Source: Rhizobiales bacterium IMCC20636
GTDB lineage: Bacteria > Pseudomonadota > Alphaproteobacteria > Rhizobiales > GCA-2746425
DNA: 64,000 nt
Assembly: GCA_016865015.1 (NCBI GenBank)
Contig: CP018226.1
Span: forward strand, 3,875,001 to 3,939,000
Direction of reading: 5' to 3'
Under the pieces are notes generated by a model. That model had not been told where the DNA came from, searched no databases, and saw nothing but the letters and a program-made list of their open reading frames with translations. Positions 24,944 through 28,161 of the stretch are shown here, one piece after another. The position numbers and the translations under genes were made by a program. Every line of letters starts with the position of its first letter. Within the stretch, counting starts at the first letter, position 1.

Positions 24944-26656
24944 CTAGAATAGAAAATACCTTTGCGCCATGGGCAGCACGTCTGCCGGCTCACAGGTCAG
25001 CAACTCACCATTGGCACGCACTTCATAGGTTTCCGGATCGACTTCCACATCCGGCGTCGCATCATTGTGGATCATGGAGGCTTTGGAGATGCCGCCTCTG
25101 GTGTTGGTCACTGGTAGCAATTGCTTGGCAACACCCAGCTTGCCGGCAAGCCCATCCTCGATGGCGGCCTGCGAGACGAAAGTTGCCGAGGAGTTGGTGA
25201 GCGATTTTCCAAACGCGCCGAACATTGGCCGGAAATGCACCGGCTGCGGCGTTGGGATGGAGGCATTCGGATCGCCCATGATTGAAGCGGCGATGGTGCC
25301 GCCGATCAGGATCATATCCGGTTTGACGCCGAAGAACGCGGGATCCCACATCACCAGATCAGCACGCTTGCCGACTTCCAGTGAGCCAATCTCGGACGAC
25401 ATGCCGTGCGCGATGGCCGGGTTAATGGTGTATTTGGCGATGTAGCGGCGCACGCGCATATTGTCATTGGCGCCGGTTTCCTCCGGCAACGGGCCGCGCT
25501 GACGTTTCATCTTGTCCGCTGTCTGCCAGGTGCGGATGATAACCTCGCCGACCCGGCCCATGGCCTGGCTGTCGGATGCGATGATCGAGAAGGCGCCCAT
25601 ATCGTGCAGGATGTCTTCCGCAGCAATGGTTTCCTTGCGAATGCGGCTTTCGGCAAAGGCAACATCTTCCGGGATATTGGCATCCAGATGGTGGCAGACC
25701 ATCAGCATGTCGAGATGTTCGGCAATGGTGTTGACCGTGTAGGGCCGCGTTGGGTTGGTGGACGATGGAATGACGTTCGGCAGGCCGCAAATCTTGATGA
25801 TATCCGGTGCGTGACCACCACCGGCCCCCTCGGTGTGGAAGGCGTGAATGGTGCGGCCCTTGAAGGCATCGACGGTGTTTTCCACAAAGCCGGATTCATT
25901 CAGCGTATCGGTGTGGATCATCACCTGAACATCATAGGCATCAGCCACTGACAGGCAGCAATCAATCGCGCCGGGTGTCGTTCCCCAGTCTTCGTGAAGT
26001 TTCAGAGCGCAGGCACCACCCAGCAACATTTCCTCCAGGGCGCCGGGTTGAGAGGCATTGCCCTTTCCGGCAAAGGCCAGGTTCATCGGAAATGCATCAG
26101 CAGATTCAATCATCCGCGCAAGATGCCAGGGGCCGGGCGTACAGGTTGTTGCCAGCGTGCCATGGGCCGGGCCGGTTCCACCGCCGAGCATGGTGGTGAG
26201 GCCGGACATCAGCGCTTCGTCGATCTGTTGCGGGCAGATGAAATGGATGTGGCTGTCAAAACCGCCGGCGGTGATGATCTTGCCTTCACCGGCTATGGCC
26301 TCAGTGCCGGGACCGATGATGATATCGACCCCAGTCTGGGTATCCGGGTTACCCGCTTTGCCAATGGCACAAATGCGGCCGCCCTTCAAACCGATATCCG
26401 CCTTGTAGATGCCGCTGTGATCGACAATCAGCGCATTGGTGATCACCGTATCCACAGCACCATTGGCGCGCGTCACCTGGGATTGCCCCATGCCATCGCG
26501 AATGACCTTGCCGCCGCCAAATTTGACCTCTTCACCATAGGTGGTGAGGTCTTTTTCCACCTCGATGAACAATTCCGTATCCGCCAGACGCACCTTGTCG
26601 CCAGTGGTGGGGCCGAACATGTCTGCATAGGCAGCGCGGGAAATTTTTGTGGGCAT
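24944..26656 (-). CDS. ureC: Urease catalytic subunit alpha UreC
   Basis: 570-aa nickel hydrolase splitting urea to ammonia and carbamate. [14 protein letters not shown] gives the two nickel-binding histidines, [16 protein letters not shown] the carbamylated bridging Lys, HTDTLNE and [15 protein letters not shown] further histidine ligands, and [22 protein letters not shown] (in parts) the flexible flap with the active-site Cys-His pair. Length is standard. The start ATG overlaps the ureB stop by one base (TAATG). Confidence 0.98.
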
Positions 26657-26961
26657 TACAATGCTCCCATAATTTTTTGATTGAAGCCATAGACCGTGCG
26701 GGTTCCACCAAGCGGCACCAGTGTCACTTCGCGGGTCTGCCCCGGTTCGAAGCGAACGGCTGAGCCCGGCGCAATATCCAGCCGCATGCCGCGCGCTGCA
26801 TCGCGCTCGAAGGACAGACTCTCATTGGTTTCAAAGAAATGATAATGGCTGCCAACCTGAACCGGACGGTCCCCGGTATTGGAAACGATGAGCGTTTTGG
26901 TTGGCTGGCCGGCGTTCAACTCAATGTCGCCAGCAGCGGTGATGACTTCTCCGGGGATCAT
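26656..26961 (-). CDS. ureB: Urease subunit beta UreB
   Basis: 101-aa structural subunit with [38 protein letters not shown] and the C-terminal [17 protein letters not shown], all UreB hallmarks. AAGGAAACGCC precedes the ATG. Unusually, it lies about 900 nt downstream of ureA because a nuclease gene and repeat segments separate the two. Confidence 0.96.
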
Positions 26962-26995
26962 GGCGTTTCCTTGTTTTCATGGGCAGTGTCTGTGG

Positions 26996-27018
26996 ACCCT
27001 CGGAACAAGTCCGAGGGT
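26996..27018. repeat. REP-like hairpin 1
   Basis: ACCCTCGGA and TCCGAGGGT form a perfect 9-bp stem around the loop ACAAG. Same orientation as hairpin 3. Confidence 0.85.
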
Positions 27019-27269
27019 GACGGAGAGGTTGGGTAGGTGTGGGTGGAAGGTTGCGCAGGCATTGCGAGAGGCTGCGTGCAACTGCCGAGAGGACGGAGGA
27101 TATCGCGTACAGTGGGTTGCGTATTGCGATGGCTCGGAAGACTCCGTTGAGCAGTTGGGAGCGTATAGCGTGAGGTCTGGTGTGGCTGCCGAGAGGTTGA
27201 ATGGATATGTTGAGGCGTTGGCACACATGTCAGACGCATGGACACCACGCCACCACACACACACCCGTC

Positions 27270-27292
27270 ATCCTCGGACTTGTTCCGAGGAT
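27270..27292. repeat. REP-like hairpin 2
   Basis: ATCCTCGGA and TCCGAGGAT form a perfect 9-bp stem around CTTGT, the reverse complement orientation of hairpin 1. It lies just after the GIY-YIG stop codon and could also act as a transcript 3'-end structure. Confidence 0.85.
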
Positions 27293-27306
27293 CCATCACC
27301 GCTGCA

Positions 27307-27594
27307 CTATCCATTGAGCGTCTCATACAAATCATCCCAATTCGGGTTCAACTCTTCAATCAGGTTCAGTTTCCACTGGCGGACATAATGCTTGATGGTC
27401 TTTTCGCGCTGAATTGCTGCGGGTATCGTTTCGTGTGCTTCGTACCAAACCAGCATTTTGCAGCCATATGTGCGGGTGAATCCGGGTGCCAGACCTTCGC
27501 GGTGCTCATAAGCGCGTTTCGGCAGGTCTGAAGTTACGCCGACGTAGAGAGTACCCTTTCGTTTTGAGGCCATGATGTAGACATATGGGTTCAT
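27307..27594 (-). CDS. GIY-YIG single-domain nuclease between ureA and ureB
   Basis: 95-aa protein of the GIY-YIG endonuclease family (COG2827-like). YVYIMASKRKGTLYVGVTS carries the paired GIY/YIG strands, KRAYEHREG the catalytic Arg region, and AIQREKTIKHY the metal-binding Glu region. I start it at MNPYVYIM, where the domain begins. There is no Shine-Dalgarno sequence before that ATG, and the frame stays open 135 nt further upstream through repeat segment B, adding VILGLVPRIH-type residues that are repeat-derived. It is flanked on both sides by related palindromic segments and splits the urease operon, so it is probably a passenger or agent of a mobile repeat. Confidence 0.85.
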   Translation of the reverse strand: MNPYVYIMASKRKGTLYVGVTSDLPKRAYEHREGLAPGFTRTYGCKMLVWYEAHETIPAAIQREKTIKHYVRQWKLNLIEELNPNWDDLYETLNG

Positions 27595-27616
27595 GGGGTT
27601 GGTGTTGGTTTTGTGG

Positions 27617-27639
27617 ATTCTCGGAACAAGTCCGAGAAT
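27617..27639. repeat. REP-like hairpin 3
   Basis: ATTCTCGGA and TCCGAGAAT form a perfect 9-bp stem around ACAAG. Compared with hairpin 1, two stem positions differ and both arms changed together, so pairing is kept. Confidence 0.85.
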
Positions 27640-27827
27640 GACGGAGAAGTTGGGTGGGTATGGCGATGAGCCGGGTGGATATGGTGAGCAGTGGGGAGAG
27701 CATTGCGAAAAGCCTGGGGCAGCTCGCAAGAGAATGGTTCAGTGTGGTGAAAAGGCGTGTCGGTATCGCGAAACGTCAGCGCACACATCAGGCGGATGGA
27801 CACCGCGCCACCACCCACACACCCGTC

Positions 27828-27850
27828 ATCCTCGGACTTGTTCCGAGGAT
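27828..27850. repeat. REP-like hairpin 4
   Basis: Identical to hairpin 2 (ATCCTCGGA, CTTGT, TCCGAGGAT) and set 8 nt after the ureA stop on the transcribed strand. Confidence 0.85.
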
Positions 27851-27858
27851 CCATCTTC

Positions 27859-28161
27859 CTAGCGGATTGGCTCATGGACTGTGACCAGTTTGGTGCCGTC
27901 GGGAAAGGTGGCTTCTACCTGAATGTCGTGGATCATTTCGGGGATGCCGTCCATGACCTGTGCGCGGGTCAGTACGTGGGCGCCCTGCTCCATCAGGTCT
28001 GCAACGCTTCTGCCGTCTCTTGCACCCTCGACAACGAAATCCGTGATCAGGGCAATTGCCTCCGGGTGGTTCAGCACAACGCCGCGCGCAAGGCGCTTGC
28101 GGGCGACTTCGGCGGCCATGGAGATGAGCAGCTTGTCTTTTTCGCGGGGGGTTAAATTCAT
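27859..28161 (-). CDS. ureA: Urease subunit gamma UreA
   Basis: 100-aa structural subunit. [20 protein letters not shown] at the start, [26 protein letters not shown] in the middle and [19 protein letters not shown] at the end are standard (quoted in part). The frame is open 66 nt further upstream, but the ATG at 28161 has AAGGGACTTGGA before it and gives the family length. Confidence 0.96.

Follow-up and report, generated by a model that had tools for sequence, protein, structure and literature searches.

A GIY-YIG nuclease gene flanked by CGTC-tagged palindromes in a rhizobial urease operon, and the association of its homologues with such repeats

The window analyzed here, a 64,000-nt stretch from the genome of Rhizobiales bacterium IMCC20636 (G000; 4.79 Mb, one contig), carries on its minus strand ureD, ureA, a GIY-YIG gene, ureB, and ureC, in that order. 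In the ureA–ureB interval of about 0.9 kb, a 31-nt hairpin occurs four times, its orientation alternating from copy to copy; the layout is as follows.

26656–26961, minus strand: ureB (urease beta), with a family match over its full length
26993–27023, minus strand: outer CGTC-tagged palindrome on the ureB side, head to head with 27265–27295 across a 241-nt spacer
27265–27295, plus strand: CGTC-tagged palindrome 11 nt past the nuclease stop codon, with its CCA tail toward the gene and its tag outward
27266–27643, minus strand: core cassette (CGTC-hairpin-CCA, gene, TGG-hairpin-GACG), a unit common to several copies at unrelated sites in relatives; its limits in the window are putative
27310–27594, minus strand: GIY-YIG nuclease gene, 95 aa, stop codon at 27307–27309, matching Pfam PF01541 at E 3.3e-15
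27614–27644, minus strand: CGTC-tagged palindrome 19 nt ahead of the nuclease start codon, with its CCA tail toward the gene and its tag outward
27823–27853, plus strand: outer CGTC-tagged palindrome on the ureA side, head to head with 27614–27644 across a 178-nt spacer
27859–28161, minus strand: ureA (urease gamma), its stop 5 nt from the outer repeat, with a family match over its full length

Each hairpin reads TGG-hairpin-GACGG or its complement, and the two inverted hairpin pairs have both ends in common, as an 82-nt repeat that is 89% alike and a 52-nt repeat that is 87% alike. The sequence-only reading of this DNA had described a GIY-YIG gene framed by two hairpin-bounded segments between ureA and ureB, which the four hairpins, their coordinates, and the PF01541 match confirm. 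The two outer segments that it took as the framing unit are present in the window, but it is the inner pair with the gene in the middle (27265–27295, gene, 27614–27644) that is found again in relatives. An open frame with VILGLVPRIH-type residues had been thought to tie repeat to nuclease; it carries no weight and a meaning in it was rejected, since it is the hairpin read through in an open frame. A Met stands at the alignment start, where the ATG at 27594 lies, in 10 of 20 aligned relatives. No intron or intein splicing element was found, the nuclease gene being intergenic and both adjoining urease genes matching their families over the full length. Features of an insertion sequence were likewise not found: the sole gene detected was the PF01541 gene, and no target duplication appeared in the junctions aligned.

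A degenerate hairpin pattern gave 35 matches in the G000 genome and its reversed form gave 0, so the hairpins are not due to chance. A second pattern matched 30 times in G000, 15 in G001, 25 in G002, 15 in G003, and twice in G004, with 0 matches for reversed controls. Among the 32 distinct variants in this second match list, which were typed by hand, stem positions 3–6 and 9, left free in the search pattern, pair in 28–32 of 32, and position 3 takes all four Watson–Crick pairs (T-A, C-G, A-T, and G-C). Head-to-head pairs were seen at most G000 sites read. With its CGTC tag, 9-bp stem with AT first, 5-nt loop, and CCA tail, the window hairpin fits by sequence the CGTC-tagged REPs of Di Nocera et al. 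2013 (PMC3733652), for which the accessible part of that paper gives a CGTC tag, a stem of 8–9 bp with AT first, a loop of 4–5 nt (5 nt in families 3 and 4), a CCA tail, and, as here, mostly head-to-head pairs. The same part of the paper places these REPs in all orders of Alphaproteobacteria, equates CGTC-1 with dRS3 in Neisseriae, suggests transcription, and a role as RNA elements, for many of them, notes that CGTC units do not flank any RAYT, and describes these REPs as repeats that “apparently lack a dedicated transposase” (PMC3733652). The word GIY is absent from it; no transposase gene is linked with the repeats in its accessible part, in contrast to the nuclease that accompanies them here.

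As in the RAYT/GTAG REP system, inverted palindromes enclose a gene and further copies lie dispersed over the genome, but the protein is a GIY-YIG protein (PF01541) rather than a Y1 transposase. A profile search for the Y1 transposase (PF01797), which found matches in 5 of 14 control genomes, gave none in the five genomes of the genus, G000–G004, and a RAYT was for that reason rejected as mobilizer in this genus.

The nuclease is a single-domain GIY-YIG protein with catalytic-type residues intact. Seven residues (Y6, Y17, G19, R27, H31, E64, and N83) are invariant in 20 aligned relatives, and we take them to be those expected in a GIY-YIG active site. T21 is also invariant and lies next to residue 22, which is Ser in the window protein. 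A structure model with pLDDT 93.6 has 1zg2 (UPF0213) as its nearest solved structure, followed by weaker matches to Slx1 and UvrC N-domains. UPF0213 and the UvrC N-domain (1zg2, 1ywl, and 1yd6) have the same fold as the window nuclease, but their similarity to it is moderate.

A Neisseria gonorrhoeae homologue, 58.9% identical over 90 aa, sits among CGTC-1-like (dRS3-type) repeats, carries GTCATTCCCGCG repeats nearby, and would correspond to ssn. The Ssn family, which Chenal and colleagues are said to have described in 2025, reportedly consists of GIY-YIG enzymes that in Neisseria cut single-stranded DNA at a repeat (NTS); an effect on transformation and thousands of homologues with their own sequences are also said to have been reported. 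The window locus is like that family in its small stand-alone GIY-YIG protein and in palindromic repeats that lie round the gene and are scattered in the genome, and is set apart by its 9-bp stem, its 5-nt loop, and the position of the cassette in a urease operon. Because the gonococcal homologue sits among repeats fitting CGTC-1/dRS3, we assign the window nuclease to the Ssn type; it is very probably a member of this family of site-specific single-strand nucleases. To that extent, the element is very probably not an undescribed one. In the literature available for searching, no paper linking GIY-YIG nucleases with CGTC repeats came up, nor did the residue-22 tag rule described below or the cassette limits, which is not proof that these are unpublished; all three come from this analysis. 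A defence or phage origin was rejected, as there was no match in PADLOC or PHROGs and none in phage records at E 1e-6.

A homologue is present in 107 of 199 related genomes, from which 111 ORFs in 108 loci were examined, drawn non-randomly, roughly down the E-value list with some skipped. A strict caller found a tagged hairpin within 200 bp of 50 of 104 homologue ORFs with full flanks (a set that still includes two genes twice plus some fragments) vs. 25 of 333 control ORFs. A motif-free test, for which duplicates were removed, fragments joined, and 5 of 107 genes dropped for short flanks, detected exact inverted flank matches of at least 14 nt at 55 of 102 nucleases vs. 1 of 335 control ORFs taken from these loci. 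With a relaxed caller and proteins of at least 70 aa, tagged palindromes were found within 250 bp of 86 of 103 homologues and on both sides of 59; of two poorly delimited genes, L035 was excluded from this set by length and L049 was counted as having no repeat. Tagged palindromes had a density of 4.23 per kb within 250 bp; past 400 bp it fell to 0.466 per kb, and reversed sequence gave 0.271 per kb.

Examination of more distant genomes gave similar figures. In a phylum sample, 113 of 398 genomes had a homologue match at E 1e-12, and tagged palindromes were present at 30 of the 31 genes whose loci were fetched (26 of 27 when four seen before are left out). A further set had them within 250 bp of 45 of 60 homologues, and at each of eight named loci selected out of 33 records (gonococcus, Planktothrix, Aeromonas, Spirosoma, Rhizobium, Sinorhizobium, Azospirillum, and Photobacterium) they occurred within 400 bp. 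No repeat was called at 17 of the 103 and 15 of the 60 homologues, some of these misses being due to limits of the caller. The association of nuclease and palindrome is systematic and occurs in several phyla, and the enrichment of homologues near the repeats, which the sequence-only reading had proposed to measure, is borne out.

Some of these loci have particular surroundings. On an Azospirillum lipoferum plasmid (L223), a homologue with tagged repeats lies between sufB and sufC, making this a second operon so split, and on a Planktothrix agardhii plasmid (L218) a homologue has an MmeI-like gene on one side and, on the other, drmA from a DISARM defence locus. Three records filed as plasmids (NZ_CP119140.1, NZ_CP119142.1, and NZ_AP026896.1) are 2.2–4.9 Mb long, sizes that resemble whole chromosomes.

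The repeats are ordered with respect to the gene. Where the nearest repeat lies within 60 bp, it points tail to gene in 36 of 42 upstream and 40 of 57 downstream cases (related loci not being independent), and 18 of these 42 upstream repeats cluster 16–22 nt from the gene. Thirty-five nuclease pairs are at least 74% identical: 22 have common neighbors, many of these pairs coming from one Bradyrhizobium group, and 13 have none, 7 of them within one genome, several loci being only 3 kb long, so that absence of common neighbors is weak there. In 11 pairs at unrelated sites, whose homology limits are a reading of alignment coordinates, DNA homology spans repeat to repeat in 6 (L113/L120, L016/L019, L031/L121, and three pairs of G179), in 2 is one-sided or stops at a contig end, and in 3 is limited to the gene. 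From this we infer that the gene and its flanking repeats form a cassette, tag-hairpin-gene-hairpin-tag.

Stem, loop, and tag vary from locus to locus, and the repeat tag follows the nuclease clade. For 84 nucleases compared between genomes, the distance of two proteins correlates with that of their repeats (Spearman coefficient 0.276, null sd 0.042, no higher than 0.124 in any of 1000 shuffles). A within-genome shuffle, in which paralogues of 13 genomes exchanged repeats, was borderline, the observed value being reached in 296 of 5000 rounds, and a nearest-neighbor test favored the own repeat of the nuclease in 13 cases and another in 10, with 9 ties. On a nuclease tree built without column 22, and with L270 excluded by hand, the tag changes 3 times vs. 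about 13 in shuffles. Each of these changes coincides with a change at residue 22; the starred branches force only one.

The relation between residue 22 and the tag was drawn from a training set of 80 single-tag nucleases (77 of the 103 and three added by hand). In this set, 12 of 12 CTC nucleases have D, E, or R at residue 22 vs. 1 of 68 GTC nucleases; read from the protein, Asp or Glu goes with CTC in 9 of 9 cases and S, N, G, A, or T with GTC in 67 of 67. The rule was fixed in writing before later nucleases were looked at. Among 60 later nucleases, 45 had a called repeat: D went with CTC in 2 of 2, and the others went with GTC in 42 of 43, two of these 42 having had no residue 22 read by script. 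The sole exception among the 43, L270, has a GTC repeat on inspection, made after the fact. Ten extra regions, partly picked from genomes with CTC repeats, gave CTC for two more nucleases with D and GTC for three with N or S. Taken together, all 4 Asp22 nucleases that were read after the rule was fixed and had a called repeat showed the CTC tag, and two more Asp22 cases had no called repeat. L225 (Asp22) has palindromes with other tags, no palindrome was found at L252 (Asp22), and L202 (Asp22), which had been seen before the rule, has an altered tag. Arg at residue 22 is non-diagnostic, with 3 CTC and 3 GTC cases (the latter L105, L211, and L294).

Across 61 genomes, matches to the CTC pattern were present in 7, and a CTC cassette was found in five of these, four having CTC cassettes of that loop type and G127 a cassette that was read; in G066 and G158, CTC repeats are present and no CTC cassette was found. 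Another repeat pattern occurs in 3 of the 61 genomes, and its two matches in G059 both adjoin the nuclease (variants not counted).

In relatives, the urease site takes several forms. G003 carries the insert at the same ureA–ureB position, the repeat next to its nuclease being interrupted by a DDE-type insertion sequence (L067 1471–2685), and G001 and G002 have a ureA–ureB gap of 34 nt and no nuclease homologue anywhere in the genome. In G004 the ureA–ureB interval holds an ORF for a DUF1272 protein (L068 4114–4377), and in G070 and G014 a similar-looking small ORF, judged by eye. The order ureA, nuclease, ureB is therefore not fixed, since G001 and G002 lack the insert and G004 has the DUF1272 ORF. 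Empty sites in relatives, which the sequence-only reading had proposed to look for, were found in the form of the insert-free gaps, but these may be losses rather than the original state: a tree of ureD–ureA DNA groups G000 with G001 and G002, then G003, and so places both within the insert-bearing clade. The tree therefore calls for one gain and one loss, or two gains, and the gaps were rejected as certain original empty sites. Target duplications, proposed together with the empty sites, did not appear where junctions could be aligned. The nuclease genes of G000 and G003 are 75% identical in DNA (71.5% for the ureD–ureA stretch and 88% for ureA), in line with common descent. Codon differences between the two genomes number 29 silent and 22 changing in the nuclease vs. 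30 silent and 3 changing in ureA.

Six repeat-pair sites elsewhere were also queried. Four are common to G000 and a relative (one aligned, three by coordinates), and at the aligned site G001 holds a single collapsed repeat. At L138 and L141, repeat pairs present in G000 are absent from the relatives read, and the junctions are unclean; among the six sites, no exact fresh insertion in the genus was caught.

These data are best accounted for by an Ssn-type nuclease that has the tagged palindromes as its cognate sites and forms a cassette with them, a reading to which we give a probability of about 0.8. The nuclease would recognize a hairpin with the unpaired 5′ tag CGTC in single-stranded DNA and cut near the tag, and residue 22, beside T21, may help to read the tag base; that the hairpin is cut seems likely. 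An ancestor of G000 and G003 would have acquired the cassette between ureA and ureB. Both the cassette and repeat pairs may spread slowly, with a repeat being cut and the break mended from a different copy that bears repeats, and they may collapse by recombination between palindromes. Because G001 and G002, which lack a homologue, have 15 and 25 repeats of the second pattern, repeats persist without the nuclease. GIY-YIG enzymes hydrolyze DNA and are not known to join strands, so transposition would need host repair.

Whether such a nuclease goes on to spread the repeats is a more doubtful matter, and we propose it tentatively. In a role like that of a RAYT, it would multiply the repeats and its own cassette by cutting tagged hairpins in single-stranded DNA, repair then copying the piece elsewhere; we hold this to be a serious possibility that falls short of being probable. 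The tag that follows the clade speaks for it, as do the seven genomes of 61 with CTC repeats, five of them with a CTC cassette, the two G059 matches beside the nuclease, the 13 of 35 pairs without common neighbors (7 within one genome), the 6 of 11 pairs homologous from repeat to repeat, the two of six repeat-pair sites in G000 that are absent from the relatives read, and the lack of a Y1 match in the five genomes of the genus. Against it stand the four of six sites common with a relative and the unclean junctions of the other two, the aligned junctions without target duplication, the 3 of 11 pairs in which the gene alone is homologous, the 3-kb length of several loci, which weakens the absence of common neighbors, and a GIY-YIG chemistry in which no strand-joining step is known. 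A mobile element is a plausible reading of the sequences. The earlier idea of a GIY-YIG enzyme in the place of a RAYT agrees with the enrichment near repeats, the five genomes without Y1, and the repeat-to-repeat homology; active movement is no more than a possibility.

A different order of events would have the repeats come first and spread by other means, with a cut repeat being repaired from a repeat-flanked copy of the nuclease. Such homing into repeats would account for the 86 of 103 loci with a called repeat beside the gene, 59 of which have one on each flank, for copies whose homology ends at repeats in 6 of 11 pairs, and for the two genomes that hold repeats and no nuclease. We think it unlikely, as homing alone does not demand that the tag follow the nuclease clade, and the clustering of upstream repeats 16–22 nt from the gene (18 of 42) suggests a unit over random capture. 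That the palindromes are operon terminators or mRNA stabilizers and the nuclease incidental is very unlikely: hairpins do lie directly after ureA and round the nuclease gene, and the accessible part of Di Nocera et al. (PMC3733652) suggests that many are transcribed as RNA elements, but this leaves the nuclease association in several phyla unexplained. We give slightly less credence still to a small gene that settled in repeat-rich intergenic DNA through repeat recombination, with no biochemical link: repeats do recombine (the collapsed pair in G001) and are intergenic at the window site, but control ORFs of the same loci are almost without such flanks and the tag base goes with a protein residue, also in cases read after the rule was fixed.

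For an Ssn-type nuclease with tagged palindromes as cognate sites, the widest extension would be that a hydrolytic GIY-YIG nuclease, and no transposase, drives both its own cassette and the whole CGTC-REP superfamily through the genomes of bacteria from several phyla, with tag and stem specific to the clade and residue 22 reading the tag base. We offer this as a conjecture with the odds against it. If true, it would give a second REP replicator beside RAYT, chemically different from it, and if the nuclease also spreads repeats, a new kind of mobile element; failing that, the nuclease–repeat pairs would remain of use, as they offer enzymes whose specificities in cutting single-stranded DNA may differ. 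CGTC-tagged REPs had no known partner gene in 2013, as far as the accessible part of PMC3733652 goes, and are now tied, across several phyla, to one nuclease family. The rule relating residue 22 to the tag base is concrete enough for a single-mutant test.

Two further arrangements of the tagged hairpins were observed in G000. At G000:C1:2954474–2958596 (L070), there are arrays of tandem units of about 230 and about 326 bp in which tagged hairpins alternate in orientation. An element of about 0.2–0.4 kb is conserved inside, has partly conserved inverted outer ends, and carries CGTC hairpins near its ends; seven of nine aligned copies (L002, L005, L007, L139, L143, L144, and L147) are clearly alike, and the element looks like a MITE with embedded repeats.
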